From Thermoanaerobacterales bacterium (GTDB lineage Bacteria; Bacillota; Thermosediminibacteria; Thermosediminibacterales; Tepidanaerobacteraceae), in NCBI GenBank assembly GCA_012839145.1, contig DUNY01000395.1, positions 1 to 5,889 on the forward strand: 5,889 nucleotides of DNA, written 5' to 3'. The position numbers were made by a program, and so were the translations under genes. Positions 1 to 5,889 of this stretch are shown piece after piece (positions within the stretch are counted from its first letter, which is position 1; each line of letters starts with the position of its first letter). The notes below the pieces were generated by a model, which saw nothing but the letters and a program-made list of their open reading frames with translations, ran no database searches and was not told where the DNA came from.

Positions 1-436
1 GTCTCGGGGAAATCATGGCATCCAGAGCATCGGCCAAGGCCACAATTCGTGCGGATAGCGGTATTATCGATCCCATCAATCCCTCATATCCCTTGCCATC
101 CCACCGTTCATGGTGATAGCGGATTATTTCTAACAGAGATTCATCCCCAACTCTATCCGAGACTAAAGTAACACCATATTTAGTATGTTTTTTTAGCTCT
201 TCCCATTCTTTATCCGTCAGCGGCAGCTTCTTTTCTATAATTTCCCTGCTGACCAGCATTTTTCCTACATCGTGAAGAAATGCCCCTTCCATCATTTTAC
301 TCTGGTGTATTTCGTCAACACCCAGTAAATTACATATTTTACAAGTAAAATTAGCAACACTAGCGCTATGAAGGTATAATGTGGGCCAGTACTGTTTCAT
401 AAAACTCAACAAATCGCTCATACCAGTTAAATTCAC
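1..436 (-). CDS. HD-GYP-like metal-dependent phosphohydrolase, 3' end cut by window edge
   Basis: The open frame runs from a GTG at 436 to the window edge, giving 145 visible residues. It is a stand-alone HD domain with almost no N-terminal extension. Expected HD-superfamily metal ligands are visible: H23, the H55-D56 pair in FLHDVGK, H84, the H108-H109 pair in YHHERWDG, and D113. The tail PLSARIVALADALDAM is typical of the HD-GYP branch, whose known members hydrolyse cyclic di-GMP to pGpG or GMP. The signature GYP is replaced by G116-Y117-E118 and the following loop is one residue short, so activity on c-di-GMP is not assured. The GTG start is chosen because AAGGAGG sits 7 nt upstream; an internal ATG at 421 is too far from that site. 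The gene lies just downstream of a c-di-GMP-I riboswitch and terminator, which ties it to c-di-GMP signalling. The HD fold is very secure; the substrate is inferred. Confidence 0.88.
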   Translation of the reverse strand, partial: MNLTGMSDLLSFMKQYWPTLYLHSASVANFTCKICNLLGVDEIHQSKMMEGAFLHDVGKMLVSREIIEKKLPLTDKEWEELKKHTKYGVTLVSDRVGDESLLEIIRYHHERWDGKGYEGLMGSIIPLSARIVALADALDAMISPR

Positions 437-443
437 AGGATTG

Positions 444-450
444 CCTCCTT
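444..450 (-). promoter_or_regulatory. Ribosome binding site deciding a GTG start
   Basis: The minus strand reads AAGGAGG, a near-perfect anti-Shine-Dalgarno match, 7 nt before the GTG at 436. It fixes the start of the HD-GYP-like gene in preference to the ATG at 421. Confidence 0.85.
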
Positions 451-489
451 TTCAGCCTTTCATGTATGTAAATATTTGTCATTCTCATA

Positions 490-517
490 GAAAAAACGGC
501 AGCCAGACAGCTACCGT
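490..517 (-). terminator. Intrinsic terminator of the riboswitch expression platform
   Basis: On the minus strand, ACGGTAGC and GCTGCCGT form an 8-bp stem with one G-U pair around a 6-nt loop (TGTCTG), followed at once by a run of six T. The plus-strand reading has no T-run, so it acts on leftward transcription only. It lies between the c-di-GMP-I aptamer (556-644) and the HD-GYP-like gene (start 436), about 53 nt before the start codon. It is therefore a leader terminator, not a gene-end terminator. Its 5' arm (510-517) is also complementary to the aptamer's 3' end (561-567), which gives an antiterminator alternative. Confidence 0.85.
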
Positions 518-555
518 AATAAAAATAATTAACGATTAATGTTAAAATCTTTTTT

Positions 556-644
556 TATTGCGGCAGCCTGGCAATCATACCTTAAGGCTTTAGACCCATG
601 GCTTTGCGCCCCATCCTTTCGAATGGTTTGCCTTTATCACAATA
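556..644 (-). promoter_or_regulatory. Cyclic di-GMP-I (GEMM-I) riboswitch aptamer
   Basis: The minus strand carries the hallmark GEMM-I core in order: AAAGGCAAACC, a stem closed by a GAAA tetraloop (CCATTCGAAAGGATGG), then GGGGCGCAAAGCCATGGG, then TCTAAAG as the tetraloop-receptor side, and finally TATGATTGCC with AGGCTGCCG. A P1 helix is visible between TATTGTG (638-644) and CGCAATA (556-562), 7 bp with one G-U pair. The match to the known Vibrio Vc2-type aptamer (GGCAAACC, GAAA loop, GACGCAAAGCC) is recalled from family knowledge and is strong throughout. The aptamer senses the second messenger c-di-GMP in the nascent RNA. It sits upstream of a terminator and an HD-GYP-like gene, so it probably controls transcription read-through into that gene. 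No secure promoter was found just upstream. Confidence 0.93.
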
Positions 645-661
645 TTTATTTTAAAATAAAT
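644..661. repeat. Perfect 18-bp AT palindrome next to the riboswitch
   Basis: ATTTATTTTAAAATAAAT is a perfect palindrome abutting the 5' end of the aptamer P1 helix. On the minus strand it contains TAAAAT, which could be a -10 element for a transcript starting just before the aptamer, but no good -35 is visible. It may be an operator or simply AT-rich chance sequence. Confidence 0.35.
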
Positions 662-1149
662 GAATTACATTTGTATATGTACATTTCCATATTTTTACAT
701 ACAGAAAACCTTCAACTTTTTACTATTATTAGGTATGAGTGATTATGCTTGAAAAGCATTTTAGGTATATAGATCTTGACAATAGAAGTACTAAATAAAG
801 TTACTGTAATATAATCTAAGTATGTTTTCACAAAAATTGTCGCAAAATGAGCTGAAAATGTTCCTAGCTAAAAGGAAATCGGAAAACACGCGATTTATAT
901 GTCAAGTACGCTGTACAGTGTAATGTAAGTAAAGAAGTTTAAAAAAGATTTATTGTTTAAATATGCCATATAGTTCTATTATACTACAAGTTAGTCCTTT
1001 TTTCCTTCTTTTGGACATGGAATATGTCAAAATTTGTAGTATTTAAATATATCACACACAATAGCCCAAATATAATTTTAAGGTAATCACATGACCTCAT
1101 ATAATTAATTAAAACACGAGAATTATATCTCTTTTTATATAATAAAGTC
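662..1149. other. AT-rich intergenic region without a recognisable gene
   Basis: This stretch lies between the end of the cssS unit and the riboswitch. I see no credible coding frame on either strand: the possible frames are short, without ribosome binding sites, and of odd composition. It should hold the promoter for the riboswitch transcript, but no well-spaced -35/-10 pair stands out on the minus strand. A TTGACA at 900-905 (minus) has no good -10 partner. It also contains an inverted repeat (981-1042), a 16-bp imperfect palindrome around CTGTACAG (907-922), and a weak 6-bp hairpin (745-759). Confidence 0.6.
981..1042. repeat. Long inverted repeat with nested hairpin
   Basis: ATACTACAA (981-989) is matched exactly by its reverse complement TTGTAGTAT (1034-1042). 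As RNA read rightward the pairing extends to 12 bp with one G-U. A second stem, TTTTGGACAT with ATGTCAAAA (1009-1032, one bulge), nests inside and shares two bases with the outer one. A pyrimidine tract (995-1012) lies between the left arms. Function is unknown. Candidates are a small structured RNA, an operator array, or a decayed miniature element. Confidence 0.4.
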
Positions 1150-1256: not shown

Positions 1257-1346
1257 TTTTATCAAACCTCTATAAGACATAAGGGGACAGTTGGATGTCG
1301 TGGTGCGATTTTGTGGTGAATAATTTTCCTCCGTCCCTAAATATTC
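1257..1346 (-). repeat. Short interspersed repeat, copy A
   Basis: Read on the minus strand, the unit starts GAATATTTAGGGACGG and ends CTGTCCCCTTATGTCTT followed by GGTTTGATAAAA. The same edges occur in copies B and C in the same orientation. The arms GGGAC and GTCCC can fold into a stem. Relative to copy C it carries 13 extra bases bounded by GTGGTG direct repeats (1300-1305 and 1313-1318). It starts inside the cssS stop codon. There is no coding capacity. It resembles GGGGAC-type repeats that I recall from Peptococcaceae, perhaps mobilised by IS200-like (RAYT) transposases; that link is inference. Confidence 0.75.
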
Positions 1347-2775
1347 AAATATTCAGGTAGAAGGAGACGCCTTTTGCTTCATTTTCAGCCCAGATTTTGC
1401 CGTTGTGCAGGGAGATTATACGATCTACGATGGCAAGGCCCAGGCCGGATTTGCCTTTATATCCTTTGTTATATTTTTGAAAAAGTGTTTCCATGATTTC
1501 AGGCTCTATATTTGGGCCATCGTTGTATATGTGTAAAAGTGCGGTGGTCTCGTCATCAGGCGCTAGAGTAATGTCGATTTTACTGTGAGCATAGCGTATT
1601 TGATTGTCCAGCAGATTTTCCAGAACCACCCGCCATTGTTCCAAATCTCCGCTTATCTTCACCGGTGAGAGTTTAAGCGACCAGTCCAATTCTTTTCTGT
1701 GCCAGCGAAGTCTTTCCACTACATCCTTTATCAACATATCCATTTCAAAATTATCCCGGGTGGGCTTATGAGTTGCAAGATAGTCCAGTTTTGTCAGGTA
1801 GAGTAGGTTTTGGATGAGCTTTTGCAGCCTGCCCGACTCTTCTTCTATTACTTGTAGTGTTCGGGTTAAATCCCCTTTGGGAAATATTCCGTCTTTGATG
1901 GCCTGTATATAGCTTTGGATTACCATGACGGGGGTTTTAAGTTCGTGGGAGATGTTTTGCAATATGGATTGTTGGGTTTCGTCTTGTAGGAGGAGTTGTT
2001 GCCTGAGCTGTTCCACGGATTTTCCCAACCTGCCTATTTCATCTTCCCGCTGTAATTGGATTGGTTCTTGCCAGTCCCGATCAGCCAGTTTTTCCACCCG
2101 TTTTTCCAAGGTTACCAGTGGGCTTGTCAGGTACCGGGATAGGCCTAGGGATGGCACCCAGCTTAGTACGAAGGCCAGACCCATTATTGTAGCAAGTCTC
2201 TTGAAAAGGGTTGTTACCAAATCCTCTCGGTAGGTGTCCCACATGTATGAGATTAAGTAAACATCATCCCCCATAACCTTGCCTTTTTTGGCTACATAAA
2301 ACATTTTCCGATCTCCCACTTGGCCGCTGTACCTTCGGCTGTCTTCAGTTTGATTTTTTATTTTATCCAGTATGTTGCCAAGCAGCCCTGCCGGTGGAAG
2401 CATGGGATGCCTGACTTTTGCTTTGAATAGATTCAGTGGAGGATTGTTCAATAGTTCTTCCGGCGGCAGAGGTATGGGGAAGCCCGGAAATATAAGAGCC
2501 TGGCTTTCTTCTATGACCATGAAATGGTTGACGGTACGCATATCTTGGGGCGGCTGAAAGACAAAGACTCTGCCGGACTGCCATGCTTCCCGGGTAAACT
2601 CGTCATTGAAGCGGTCAAACATCATCCCTTGAGCACTTTCGATGGTTGCGTATATTTCTTTGGTGAAAAAGTCCCGCAGGGTCATGGGCAGCAGAATGCA
2701 CAATAATATGGATATACATAGGGTGATTACGGCAAAGACCAGCCAGATTTGTAAGGAGAGGGGAAGGTTTTTCAT
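1345..2775 (-). CDS. cssS: CssS-like secretion-stress sensor histidine kinase
   Basis: This is a 476-residue membrane sensor kinase that should autophosphorylate and pass phosphate to the adjacent regulator. Domains in order: a membrane segment at about 11-31, an extracytoplasmic sensor region at about 32-190, a second membrane segment at about 192-212, HAMP at about 212-265, HisKA with phospho-acceptor H277 in NISHELKTPVMVIQSY, then HATPase_c with N-box ENLLDNQIRYA (N391), G1 NDGPNI (D419) and G2 GKSGLGLAIV (441-450). All catalytic boxes are present. The N-terminus (MKNLPLSLQIW, then TLRDFFT), the stretch KDGIFPKGDL and NLLYLTKLDYLA closely resemble Bacillus subtilis CssS as I recall it. That protein senses misfolded secreted protein with CssR and induces htrA and htrB. 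The sensor region is the least conserved part, so the stimulus may differ. The start overlaps the cssR stop by 4 nt (ATGA), indicating translational coupling, with GGTG 5 nt upstream. The last stop-codon bases lie in repeat copy A. Confidence 0.9.
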   Translation of the reverse strand: MKNLPLSLQIWLVFAVITLCISILLCILLPMTLRDFFTKEIYATIESAQGMMFDRFNDEFTREAWQSGRVFVFQPPQDMRTVNHFMVIEESQALIFPGFPIPLPPEELLNNPPLNLFKAKVRHPMLPPAGLLGNILDKIKNQTEDSRRYSGQVGDRKMFYVAKKGKVMGDDVYLISYMWDTYREDLVTTLFKRLATIMGLAFVLSWVPSLGLSRYLTSPLVTLEKRVEKLADRDWQEPIQLQREDEIGRLGKSVEQLRQQLLLQDETQQSILQNISHELKTPVMVIQSYIQAIKDGIFPKGDLTRTLQVIEEESGRLQKLIQNLLYLTKLDYLATHKPTRDNFEMDMLIKDVVERLRWHRKELDWSLKLSPVKISGDLEQWRVVLENLLDNQIRYAHSKIDITLAPDDETTALLHIYNDGPNIEPEIMETLFQKYNKGYKGKSGLGLAIVDRIISLHNGKIWAENEAKGVSFYLNI

Positions 2776-3434
2776 GGCTTCACCATTCGATAGCCATATC
2801 CGTATATGGTTTCAAGGCAAAGGTGGGGCATCTTTTTCCTCAGCCGCCGAATCAGGTCATCGACTACGCGATCGCTTCCGAAGTAATCGGAGCCCCATAT
2901 ATTTGTAAGAATTTGCTCCCGGGACAGTGCAAGGCCTTCATTTTTAACAAAGTAAATTACCAGATCGAATTCTTTGGAGGTAAGGTCGATTACTTCTTCG
3001 TTGAGTTTGACCGTTCTGCTTGCTTCATTGATTATGTAGGGAGATAGAGAGTGTGTTTGAAGGGCCGGGCTGTATATGCGCTCCAGGAGGTTGCGGGTGC
3101 GGATGACCAGCTCCCGGGGGAGGAAGGGCTTGGCCAAATAATCGTCACTGCCCAGCTCTAAGCCCACAACCCTGTCAATATCGGCATCTCTTGCGGAGAT
3201 AAAGATTATAGGCACTTGAGGTGAAGCGGCTTTTATTTCCTGTAGCAGATGATAGCCGTCTATATCCGGCAGCATTATGTCCAATATCCACAAATCAGGG
3301 GGAGTGGCGATAGCATGCTTTGCTTCGGTGCCGGTAAGGAAGGAGGAAACTTCCCATCCTTCTTTTTGCAAGTAGGATGTGAGAACCAGATTTAGATTTG
3401 TATCATCCTCTACTAAATAGATTCGGTATGACAT
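2772..3434 (-). CDS. cssR: CssR-like OmpR/PhoB-family response regulator
   Basis: This is a 220-residue cytoplasmic transcription factor. The receiver domain spans about 1-118, with acidic pocket E9-D10-D11, phospho-acceptor D52 (WILDIMLPDIDGY), S80 and K102 (LAKPF). The C-terminal winged-helix domain spans about 125-218, with TSKEFDLV, the recognition region SDRVVDDLIRRLRKKM, and wing motif ETIYGYGYRM. MSYRIYLVEDD, the segment IIFISARDADIDRVVGLELGS and the DYFGSDRVVDDL block are strikingly like B. subtilis CssR as I recall it. The start at 3434 is chosen because AGAGGTGG lies 8 nt upstream and because MSYRIYLVEDD is the family N-terminus. An in-frame ATG at 3485 would add 17 residues, would start inside repeat copy B and has no homology support. 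It is coupled to cssS through an ATGA overlap. Targets cannot be seen here; the neighbouring exporter genes and its own operon are plausible. Confidence 0.93.
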   Translation of the reverse strand: MSYRIYLVEDDTNLNLVLTSYLQKEGWEVSSFLTGTEAKHAIATPPDLWILDIMLPDIDGYHLLQEIKAASPQVPIIFISARDADIDRVVGLELGSDDYLAKPFLPRELVIRTRNLLERIYSPALQTHSLSPYIINEASRTVKLNEEVIDLTSKEFDLVIYFVKNEGLALSREQILTNIWGSDYFGSDRVVDDLIRRLRKKMPHLCLETIYGYGYRMVKP

Positions 3435-3442
3435 AATTTTCA

Positions 3443-3450
3443 CCACCTCT
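3443..3450 (-). promoter_or_regulatory. Ribosome binding site for cssR
   Basis: AGAGGTGG on the minus strand lies 8 nt before the ATG at 3434. It decides that start over the upstream in-frame ATG at 3485, which has no such site. Confidence 0.85.
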
Positions 3451-3457
3451 TTCCTTA

Positions 3458-3485
3458 ATTTTATCAAACCGGCTGAAAGACACAA
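3458..3485 (-). promoter_or_regulatory. Possible promoter for cssRS at the edge of repeat B
   Basis: On the minus strand TTGTGT (3480-3485) and TAAAAT (3458-3463) are 16 nt apart, and the -10 is preceded by a TG at 3465-3466. Transcription would begin near 3451, very close to the cssR ribosome binding site, so the 5' leader would be very short. Both boxes fall in or at the edge of repeat copy B. The match is moderate and no activity is shown. Confidence 0.3.
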
Positions 3486-3583
3486 GGGGCGGTTCGGTGT
3501 TGGGATGAATAATTTTTCACAGTTTCGCGCTGTTATGCGGTGAATACGGTGAATGAATAAAAAAGAACCGTCCCTAAATATTC
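3459..3583 (-). repeat. Short interspersed repeat, copy B (longest)
   Basis: On the minus strand it starts GAATATTTAGGGACGGTTC and ends GAACCGCCCCTTGTGTCTT, then GCCGGTTTGATAAAA. GGGACGGTTC and GAACCGCCCC pair over 9 bp with one bulged A. Its right half matches copy C (AATTATTCA, then CCCCTTGTGTCTT), but it has about 50 additional interior bases that A and C lack. It abuts copy C directly and ends just before the cssR ribosome binding site. It is noncoding. Confidence 0.75.
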
Positions 3584-3584
3584 C

Positions 3585-3658
3585 TCAAACCGGCCATAAG
3601 ACACAAGGGGACAGTTGGATGTTGCGGTGAATAATTTTCCTCCGTCCCCAAATATTCC
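3585..3658 (-). repeat. Short interspersed repeat, copy C (shortest)
   Basis: On the minus strand it starts GGAATATTTGGGGACGG and ends CTGTCCCCTTGTGTCTT, then GCCGGTTTGA. The arms GGGGACGG and CTGTCCCC pair over 8 bp with one G-U, leaving a loop of about 30 nt. It begins 5 bp after the permease stop codon and is joined head to tail to copy B. Apart from the 13-bp difference it is nearly identical to copy A, which lies about 2.3 kb away. Confidence 0.78.
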
Positions 3659-3663
3659 ATTAA

Positions 3664-4845
3664 CTATTCGTAGCGGAGGGCTTCGATGGGTTTTAGGTTG
3701 CTGGCTTTGTTGGCGGGATAGATGCCGAAAAACACTCCTACCAGCATGGAAAAGCCAAAGGCAACGGCTACCACTGAATAGGTGGTTTTTACACCCATAT
3801 TCATCAGTTGAGCTATTCCTCTACTTAGCAAAAATCCCGTGACGATTCCGATGACTCCTCCGATACCGCTGATTACCAAGGACTCGATGAGGAACTGGCT
3901 CATTACGTCTCGCTTTCTGGCACCGAGGGCCTTTCTTATGCCTATTTCCCGAGTGCGCTCGGTGACGGATACCAGCATGATATTCATGATACCGATTCCG
4001 CCTACCAGAAGTGAGATGGCGGCTATTCCCCCCAGCATCATGGTCAGTGTACCGGTGGCCTGGTTTATGGTGTCAAGCATCTGAGTTTGATCAAAGACTC
4101 TGAAGCTTTGGAAATCGCTGTCGGGGTTATCTTTGAAGATACGGGAAAGCTTTGAAGATATCTCATTGGTGGCCAAAGTGACGGTGTCCTGGGAAGAAGC
4201 CTGAATGTACATTACCCTTACACCCCTGGTCTGCAGGAGCCTTTCGGCAACGGTGATGGGGATGTATATCTCTTCCTCATTGGAGCCCATCATGGAGCTT
4301 GTGGATTCCAGGATTCCGATTACTTTAAAAGTCTGGCCTCCCATCTTTATCTCCTGGCCCACCGGATCTACTAAGCCAAACAGGTCTTCGGCTATTTGTG
4401 AACCTAGTACGACTACTTTTTGACGCATGTTTACATCAGTGGGAGCAATGAATCTACCCTTTGACAGTTGGTAATTCCTCACGGTGAGAAAATCGCCATT
4501 AGTTCCCTGTACCTGTACACTGCTGTTTTTATTGGCGTGTTTTACCGTGATATTTCCGGTGATCACCGGTGCCACTGCGCTGATATTTGGGCTGTTTGCA
4601 AATTCCATGGCCTCATCATATCTCAAAGTGGTATTGGCCCCTCTGCCCATTATGTTTACGGTGAGAAGATTTGAGCCTAGGCTTTGTATCTGTTCGGTTA
4701 CTTTGGCCGTGGCACCTTGACCTATGGAAACCAGGGCGATGACGGAAGTCACGCCTATGATTATCCCCAGCATGGTCAAAAATGAGCGCAGTTTATTGTC
4801 CAAGATACCTCTGAAGGCTATTTTTACGGTCTGGAGTATATCCAT
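3664..4845 (-). CDS. MacB/YknZ-like ABC transporter permease
   Basis: This 393-residue inner-membrane subunit has the MacB topology: membrane segment 1 at about 21-41 ([20 protein letters not shown]), a large extracytoplasmic MacB core domain at about 45-265, then three membrane segments at about 270-292, 318-345 and 355-377 forming the FtsX-type domain. The cytoplasmic stretch [20 protein letters not shown] (295-314) and the ending [16 protein letters not shown] are family hallmarks. Such permeases do not form a classical channel; they transmit ATP-driven movement to a periplasmic adaptor to expel peptides, lipids or drugs. Here the permease is separate from its ATPase, as in Firmicute YknYZ-type systems; in proteobacterial MacB the two are fused. 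Its ATG abuts the ATPase stop (TAAATG) and its ribosome binding site AAGGTGG (4854-4860) lies within the ATPase gene, so the two are translationally linked. The gene is intact and full length. The substrate cannot be told from sequence. Confidence 0.94.
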
Positions 4846-5529
4846 TTATCCGACCACCTTTACGTCTTTTACTATTTTGCCGTCCTGGATATGGACATTT
4901 CTTTCGGCTTGGTTTGCTATATTGATATCATGGGTTATGAGGATGATGGTTTTCCCGTTCCCGTGCAGTTCTTTCAATATTTCCATGATCTCACGGCCGG
5001 ATCTGGTGTCTAAGTTTCCGGTGGGTTCATCGGCCAGTATGATGGGTGGGTCCGTAGACAAAGCCCGGGCAATGGCCACCCTTTGCTGCTGCCCTCCGGA
5101 AAGCTCCGTAGGCCGGTGGTGTAGTCTGTCCCCTAAGCCCACGGAGTTTAAGGTCTCCATGGCTCTGTTTCTCCGGGCTAAGCCCTTCTTTCCCCCGTAG
5201 GTAAGAGGTAGCTCTACATTTTCCAGGGCAGTGAGCTTGGAAAGCAGGTTGAAACTTTGAAACACAAATCCTATATGCCGGTTTCGGATGAGGGCCAGCT
5301 GGTTGTCATTGAGTTTGGATATATCTTTGTCTTCAAAGGTGTATGTACCTTCAGTGGGGGTGTCAAGACAGCCAATGATATTCATAAGGGTGGATTTGCC
5401 CGAACCTGAGGGTCCTACTATGGCTATAAATTCCCCTTTTTCGATTTCCAGTGTTATACCGTCAAGGGCATGGACCGCCGTGTCTCCCATTTTGTAGATT
5501 TTGAAAACACTGTCAAAGCTTATGAGCAT
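4846..5529 (-). CDS. ABC transporter ATPase, MacB/LolD/YknY type
   Basis: This 227-residue cytoplasmic ATP-binding subunit is intact. Visible motifs are Walker [10 protein letters not shown] (39-47), Q-loop Q91 in FVFQSFNLL, signature LSGGQQQR (143-150), Walker [13 protein letters not shown] (163-174), and H-loop H200 in LITHD. The [22 protein letters not shown] and DEPTGNLD wording is typical of the family that powers MacB/FtsX-type permeases. The start ATG at 5529 has AGAGGTGA at 5534-5541, which overlaps the adaptor's stop codon (5540-5542). The stop touches the permease start with no gap. It therefore pairs with that permease and with the adaptor upstream as a tripartite exporter. The family call is very secure; substrate specificity is not given by the ATPase. 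Confidence 0.96.
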
Positions 5530-5539
5530 ATTATCACCT

Positions 5540-5889
5540 CTAATTGGGTCTCGTCCTTATTTGCACGGGTCCCACAGGACCCATCTGGCCGCCGGGTCCA
5601 CCGCCGAAACGGTTAATATTGCTGCCGGTGCTGGAATTTGATAGCAAGACCGTGTCCCCTTCTTTTAAGCCGCTTACAATTTCGATGTATTCATCATTGC
5701 TGATACCGGTTTGGACTTCAACCATTTTAGTTGGAGGGACTTTGTCGTTATTTGACCTGTCTTGTCTGTTTTCCCTTTCGCCCTGGGTGGTCATCACATA
5801 GCTCTTGCCGTTTTGATATTGTATGGCTGATATAGGCAGCATCAGGACATCTTGTTTCCTGGCTGCGATAAGTTCGGCATCAACCGTCA
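5540..5889 (-). CDS. Periplasmic adaptor (MacA/YknX/HlyD-like) subunit, 5' end cut by window edge
   Basis: Only the last 115 residues are inside the window. The frame stays open to the right edge, so the methionine at 5842 is internal and not the start. The visible part has the adaptor beta-barrel end (DVLMLPISAIQYQNGKSYVM) and the membrane-proximal motif VEVQTGISNDEYIEIVSGLKEGDTVLL, where GLKEGD is a hallmark of MacA/RND-adaptor proteins. In tripartite exporters this subunit is anchored in the membrane and couples the permease to the outside. Two oddities are a charged linker (residues about 37-57 of the visible part, rich in Arg, Asn, Asp and Lys) interrupting the barrel, and a C-terminal tail rich in Gly and Pro (FGGGPGGQMGPVGP). 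The stop TAG overlaps the ATPase ribosome binding site, giving tight operon packing. The family is secure; the N-terminal anchor and hairpin are out of view. Confidence 0.9.
   Translation of the reverse strand, partial: TVDAELIAARKQDVLMLPISAIQYQNGKSYVMTTQGERENRQDRSNNDKVPPTKMVEVQTGISNDEYIEIVSGLKEGDTVLLSNSSTGSNINRFGGGPGGQMGPVGPVQIRTRPN

Follow-up and report, generated by a model that had tools for sequence, protein, structure and literature searches.

A gene for an HD-GYP-like protein with a probable Spo0E-like tail under a predicted c-di-GMP OFF switch in a Thermoanaerobacterales bacterium and its relatives

Introduction

When a riboswitch for c-di-GMP precedes a gene whose product may destroy c-di-GMP, in which direction would the resulting loop run, and what would it be for? 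The window analysed here, a stretch of 5,889 nt, raises this question on its minus strand. A preliminary description of the same DNA had placed an aptamer and a leader terminator in front of a gene of the HD-GYP branch and had proposed, as an inference, a direct feedback loop. Many genes behind GEMM-I RNAs are known to relate to the synthesis, degradation or sensing of c-di-GMP (PMC7266159), and the riboswitch part of this locus is ordinary in kind. What appears new is the architecture, in which an HD-GYP-like protein ending in a Spo0E-like tail stands under a predicted c-di-GMP OFF switch, an arrangement kept in several families. The genome encodes five GGDEF domains and can therefore likely make c-di-GMP.

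Results

A gene probably divided between two contigs

The window is an entire contig (C252); the genome comprises 493 contigs with 2,577,349 bases in all. For this reason, the HD-GYP-like ORF is truncated at base 2 by the contig end. The start of the gene is read as follows.

444 to 449, minus strand: ribosome-binding site AGGAGG, separated from the start codon by 7 nt
2 to 436, minus strand: HD-GYP-like gene, first 145 codons, with a GTG start at 436 (PF01966 HD, 81.4 bits; PF13487 HD_5, 68.2 bits)

A profile (A1) built from 20 relatives finds a further piece in the same genome; it covers positions 148-242 of the model and lies where contig C375 ends (C375:3306-3007, minus strand, 99 codons). 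This piece is identical to the end of P0001, a protein of 246 aa, which is 97% identical to the 145 aa of the window, and we therefore take it as the continuation of the gene. As P0001 has two residues between the two pieces, the contigs, which do not overlap, would be separated by a gap of 5 nt. Very likely, then, the sequences represent one gene split by the assembly, with the rest on C375.

The remainder of the window (1345-5887, minus strand) holds, in a run, an adaptor-like fragment with no Pfam match, an ABC ATPase, a MacB-type permease, a response regulator and a histidine kinase. A long inverted repeat seen by eye near 1160-1200, AAGCAGCC...GGCTGCTT, may end this run. Three related intergenic repeats (AGACACAAGGGG ... 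TGAATAATTTTCC...CCGTCCC; 1261-1351, 3464-3523 and 3585-3662) are placed around the two-component and ABC genes.

The aptamer and its ligand

Upstream of the gene, the aptamer named in the preliminary description is borne out by a full-length cmscan match.

558 to 641, minus strand: c-di-GMP-I aptamer (RF01051 / RF03167 by covariance-model score), with A at the base read as 47 and G at the base read as 20

The plain c-di-GMP-I model (RF01051), against which the minus strand was to be checked with Infernal, gives 79.8 bits at 642-559, with a gathering score of 35, and the c-di-GMP-I-GGC model (RF03167) gives 74 bits at 641-558, full length, with a gathering score of 59 and an E-value of 1e-16. 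The clan contest of Rfam is won by RF03167. The name "GGC" appears to stand for G20-G47-C92, with G replacing A47, as we read the model consensus and the name. In the cmscan alignment, the GGC consensus reads CGCGAAG and the window CGCAAAG; we take the differing base to be position 47 of the Vc2 aptamer, and number position 20 likewise. The GGC-diagnostic column is A in all 17 aptamers compared, the window included, and membership in a true GGC class was rejected on this basis. Sixteen of the 17, again with the window among them, carry G at the base taken as position 20, the exception being the aptamer of locus L129, which reads AATAGT at this site. A C stands at the likely place of C92 in the 3' strand GGCTGCCG. 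Given the A at the first of these sites in 17/17 and the G at the second in 16/17, the aptamer is better read as a canonical c-di-GMP pocket than as a GGC variant, the GGC label probably being an outcome of similar flanks. We predict with high confidence that the ligand is c-di-GMP.

Three further c-di-GMP-I aptamers were observed in the same genome. One (L006, 1501-1585, minus strand) precedes a CheX gene (PF13690, 75.9 bits) and another (L007, 1501-1597, plus strand) a dCache-HAMP chemoreceptor-like gene. An ORF with an SLH domain lies upstream of the third (L008, C113, 1404-1491, minus strand; 51.7 bits), and the gene ahead of it is convergent; the next ~240 nt showed no ordinary target gene. 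This aptamer is followed by a terminator-like hairpin, and its base read as 20 looks like A.

The leader and the direction of switching

Between the aptamer and the gene, the proposed leader terminator was recovered as a hairpin at 517-496 followed by a T run, and it recurs in the leaders of relatives.

648 to 677, minus strand: possible sigma-70-type promoter, TATACA-18-TAAAAT, 9 of 12 consensus letters
561 to 568, minus strand: aptamer 3' strand GGCTGCCG, the predicted antiterminator strand, 8 of 8 pairs with 516-509, duplex -13.8 kcal/mol
509 to 516, minus strand: terminator 5' arm CGGTAGCT, common to the terminator and the predicted antiterminator by pairing and folding
488 to 517, minus strand: intrinsic terminator, hairpin 517-496 of 9 pairs (5 G-C), then TTTTTC, -13.2 kcal/mol

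The promoter candidate does not exceed chance (15 sites of this type against 13.2 expected), and terminator-like sites are in no excess in the window (5 found, 6.5 expected), so the support for the terminator is its place and its presence in the leaders of relatives. It is present in 14 of 17 leaders; the script found none in L126 and L141, and that of L129, far downstream, is doubtful. These three were left out of the antiterminator counts, and the terminator arm of L137 was set by hand for the shuffle test and the state energies.

Across the 14 leaders, 103 of 112 cells are paired when the aptamer strand GG(C/U)UGCC(G/A) is set in register against the terminator 5' arm; shuffling the arm region 500 times, with the best register sought in the same way, gave a mean of 80.4 and a maximum of 89. 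Compensatory double changes were looked for in the antiterminator and none was found, the changes being one-sided (G-U/G-C) among related sequences. With dinucleotide-preserving shuffles, eight of the 14 duplexes fall at or below 5%, the fractions for the others being 10-14% (L122, L124, L130 and L039), 26% (L137) and 49% (L135). By folding energy, the antiterminator state is the lower of the two in ten of the 14 leaders and the terminator state in four (L122, L130, L134 and L137).

The antiterminator draws on the 3' strand of the aptamer itself, so a bound ligand should promote termination, and the leader is, on this modelling, quite likely a c-di-GMP OFF switch. All C. difficile class I switches tested are likewise off, according to PMC6200980, and the terminator-type platform with a predicted OFF sign is shared with them. 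The window's switch differs from these, and from other RF01051 riboswitches, in controlling an HD-GYP-like gene with a Spo0E-like tail; it has in common with the RF01051 riboswitches a score over the gathering threshold and the letters A47 and G20. Relative to RF03167, it exceeds the gathering cut-off and is assigned there by the clan contest, but carries A instead of G at the differing base, as do all 17 aptamers.

Conservation in relatives

The adjacency of the aptamer to the HD-GYP-like gene, also part of the preliminary description, is conserved. Twenty sources were scanned and yielded 18 distinct loci with a near full-length match to the family, after removal of L080, which repeats the contig of L141, and of L100, whose match falls short of full length. 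An aptamer of the c-di-GMP-I clan lies upstream on the same strand in 16 of the 18 loci, or 17 of 19 with the window, and was not found upstream in L128 and L147. The distance from the aptamer end to the family match is about 70-160 nt in 15 loci and 584 nt in L129. By their labels, the carriers represent eight groups at family level within the window's phylum; to these comes L039, a MAG recorded under Actinobacteria. At three of 16 other loci (L015, L017 and L021), an aptamer precedes an HD gene without a full tail match, so the pairing of riboswitch and HD-GYP gene extends more widely than the fusion.

A few loci look unusual. The aptamer of L126, at 41.5 bits and with changed core letters, looks decayed, and the L132 gene carries two TAA stops, a sign of decay. 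In L129 (829-917 in reverse-complement coordinates; genome G332), the aptamer with A at the base read as 20 stands 584 nt upstream of a tail-bearing gene. The leader in genome G060 (L180, 2300-3200) gave no c-di-GMP aptamer even at a relaxed threshold.

The HD-GYP-like domain

The HD-GYP-like gene of the preliminary description was confirmed, with a signature that is not complete: the HD domain (PF01966, PF13487) and the HHExxDGxGY motif are present, but the P of GYP is absent, the window reading GYEG, and we therefore name the protein HD-GYP-like. The P is missing in all 49 readable rows of a 50-row protein comparison, in which the rows overlap, some L and P rows being the same protein, and from which L132 was dropped for its broken frame. 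The metal-type residues HD, HH and D are invariant in 20/20 relatives, and both the HD fold and these residues, as in HD-GYP phosphodiesterases, were found. The best structural matches are HD-GYP domains, with c-di-GMP phosphodiesterases among them, and the best match by sequence in the PDB is 5z7c, a cGAMP-specific enzyme. Compared with the HD-GYP phosphodiesterases PA4781 (4r8z), 4mcw, DvhD (9rbz) and V-cGAP3 (5z7c), the window protein lacks the P of GYP and has no receiver or PAS part, but carries a Spo0E-like tail instead. We predict that the protein is probably an active c-di-GMP hydrolase.

The Spo0E-like tail

In those relatives that are ~240-260 aa long, the last 55-60 residues resemble PF09388 (Spo0E-like), for which the cut-off is 23 bits: the C375 piece of the window's own genome scores 24.0 and 24.8 bits and P0020 37.5, and whole P0001 stays under the cut-off at 21.9. 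A match at E <= 0.001 occurs in 12 of the 20 members of A1, eight being without, and no match at E <= 0.05 was found in L134, L135, L137 and L141. A profile of 20 tails aligned by hhalign with 17 Spo0E segments from other proteins gave 93.9% (E 1.6e-7, score 35.5), and 40 column-shuffled controls reached at most 1.3% and a score of 12.4. Against the PDB, the tail profile found 2c0s (E 9e-6) and 2bzb (E 0.017), which we take to be solved Spo0E-type proteins, and between them Nucleolar protein 16, a short helical match (E 0.0088). The AlphaFold2 model of P0001 (pLDDT 91.2, pTM 0.89 for the whole) shows the tail as a predicted hairpin with helices at 190-207 and 212-245; the structure-search rows are filled by HD domains and so do not bear on the tail alone.

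At the site of the Spo0E motif SQELD, P0001 and the own-genome piece read SRWID and most relatives SQWLD. The third letter is W in place of E in 45 of the 50 rows. In 16 Spo0E segments, from a set of 30 loci of which 14 yielded none to the motif pattern and were dropped, this letter is E, Q, K or R and never W. It is thus variable, so that W need not abolish function, yet among these sequences W is peculiar to the present family. Relative to Spo0E-like regulators (PF09388; 2c0s, 2bzb), the tail shares the two-helix hairpin (predicted here), the profile match and, in most tails, the S, L and D of SQELD, but is fused to an HD-GYP-like domain, has W at the E of SQELD and stands under a c-di-GMP riboswitch. 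We consider it very likely that the tail is of the Spo0E kind. Further Spo0E fusions may exist: in two other genomes (L197 and L206), Spo0E-like segments lie in the C-terminal part of frames of 339 and 294 aa.

Stand-alone Spo0E proteins act on phosphorylated Spo0A. Action of the tail on Spo0A is a fair conjecture, at best evenly poised against its opposite. The window's genome has a Spo0A_C piece at a contig end, but Spo0A_C is no commoner among carriers (16 of 18 genomes) than in a sample of the phylum (53 of 61), and co-occurrence with Spo0A was dropped as evidence for the target of the tail, the base rate being equal.

The neighbouring genes

Directly behind the HD-GYP-like gene on C375 comes a FapA gene, its start overlapping the stop codon of the former. 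The encoded protein (610 aa; PF20250, 121.9 bits; PF03961, 92.7 bits) is 53.9% identical over 607 aa to the FapA of L039. The order in L039 is HD-GYP-like gene with tail, SpoIIAB-like kinase, STAS, SpoIIE-type phosphatase (135.2 bits), STAS and FapA, the kinase scoring 29.8 bits to HATPase_c_2 (cut-off 27.4) and 29 bits to an anti-sigma F model, below its cut-off of 135. By eye, L180 and L182 have the same run, the kinase and FapA of L182 being confirmed by Pfam; in L181, a STAS gene follows (Pfam) and the following gene of L183 looks the same, and L184 has ORFs that resemble CheY, CheA and CheW by eye. Compared with the SpoIIAB/SpoIIAA/SpoIIE and RsbW/V/U partner switches, the gene in L039 is followed by HATPase_c_2, STAS, SpoIIE and STAS, but the run is headed by a c-di-GMP riboswitch, and no such run was found next to the gene in the window's genome, where FapA follows.

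A model of the run's kinase (pLDDT 71.1, pTM 0.56) matches histidine kinases as well as SpoIIAB/RsbW among the 50 matches listed. The L039 kinase (5713-7011) begins with a conserved Cys-rich part and contains a beta-rich stretch (~36-111 in P0065) that looked PilZ-like by eye; Pfam gives no PilZ there, none of the searches lends it support, and such a domain is not claimed.

Discussion

The feedback proposed earlier is still an inference, but one whose sign can now be predicted, since an OFF switch on a c-di-GMP hydrolase means positive feedback. Such a loop would be a latch rather than a thermostat. High c-di-GMP would keep the aptamer folded, the terminator would form and the gene would stay untranscribed; at low c-di-GMP, the aptamer 3' strand would pair with the terminator 5' arm and permit read-through. 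The HD-GYP-like domain would then destroy the leftover c-di-GMP and the leader would stay open, latching the low-c-di-GMP state. Phosphorylated Spo0A would most likely be the target of the Spo0E-like hairpin, so that this state may also hold back sporulation. The aptamer, terminator, complementarity, HD-GYP-like residues, tail homology and linkage are read from sequence and the fold is predicted, and from these we infer ligand binding, switching direction, hydrolysis and action on Spo0A. For the explanation as a whole, in which a predicted OFF switch controls a likely eraser of its own ligand and the Spo0E-like tail of this protein acts on Spo0A, we see the case for and the case against as about equal.

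Each step of this explanation has a competitor. An aptamer for another ligand, be it the GGC-type variant of Rfam or a cGAMP sensor, would fit the clan contest taken by RF03167 and the A that relative L129, unlike the rest with their G, carries at the base numbered 20, cGAMP-type aptamers having A there; with A at the GGC-diagnostic column in 17/17, G at position 20 in 16/17 including the window, and more bits to RF01051 than to RF03167 (on scales that differ), we regard this as highly improbable. An ON switch, by which c-di-GMP would raise its own eraser and negative feedback would keep a steady level, is also hard to credit, if slightly less so: enzymes that degrade the ligand of a switch are usually wired for homeostasis, but here the terminator arm would be freed by the 3' strand of the aptamer itself. 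One C. difficile class I gene does rise with c-di-GMP, through its promoter, and yet the class I switches tested in that organism are uniformly off (PMC6200980).

The two remaining alternatives concern the protein. Were the HD domain inactive on c-di-GMP, or were it to prefer another nucleotide, there would be no direct feedback; the absence of the P of GYP from every readable row (49 of 50) and the cGAMP-specific 5z7c as top PDB sequence match speak for this, but the metal-type HD, HH and D residues are unchanged in 20/20 and the top structural matches are HD-GYP domains including c-di-GMP phosphodiesterases, and we think it unlikely. The most serious competitor keeps both OFF switch and eraser but makes the tail a hairpin for dimerisation or partner binding without contact to Spo0A, which would leave an ordinary c-di-GMP feedback gene. 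It accords with W standing where SQELD has E in 45 of the 50 rows compared, with whole P0001 falling below the PF09388 cut-off, with Spo0A not being enriched in carriers and with tail-less HD-GYP genes that may carry the same riboswitch. We nevertheless hold it to be a credible minority view, as the match to the Spo0E profile lies far above the shuffled controls, the sequence search finds a solved Spo0E-type structure and the third motif letter varies (E, Q, K, R) in 16 Spo0E segments.

The predicted sign also bears on the tail. In C. difficile, c-di-GMP lowers early sporulation via "an unidentified regulatory pathway" (PMC8653836), whereas the predicted inhibition of Spo0A here would occur at low c-di-GMP. 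This opposite sign implies either a different circuit or a tail that is no Spo0A phosphatase. Among the openly licensed papers searched, which are weak evidence of absence, we found no direct link from c-di-GMP to Spo0A and no report joining Spo0E with HD-GYP; nor did the openly licensed literature yield a report naming SQELD with Spo0E.

The Spo0E-like tail that the protein very likely has, outside the window, alters the purpose that the loop may serve. If a riboswitch stops production of the enzyme destroying its own ligand, it would be a natural RNA-based bistable switch. A bolder and rather unlikely reading is a latch of one gene with two outputs, in which at low messenger a single protein would both erase c-di-GMP and dephosphorylate Spo0A; if this were true, the c-di-GMP level would be written directly into the sporulation decision. 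Found in harmless anaerobes, the riboswitched HD-GYP-like protein with its Spo0E-like tail offers a concrete, testable wire from c-di-GMP to sporulation.
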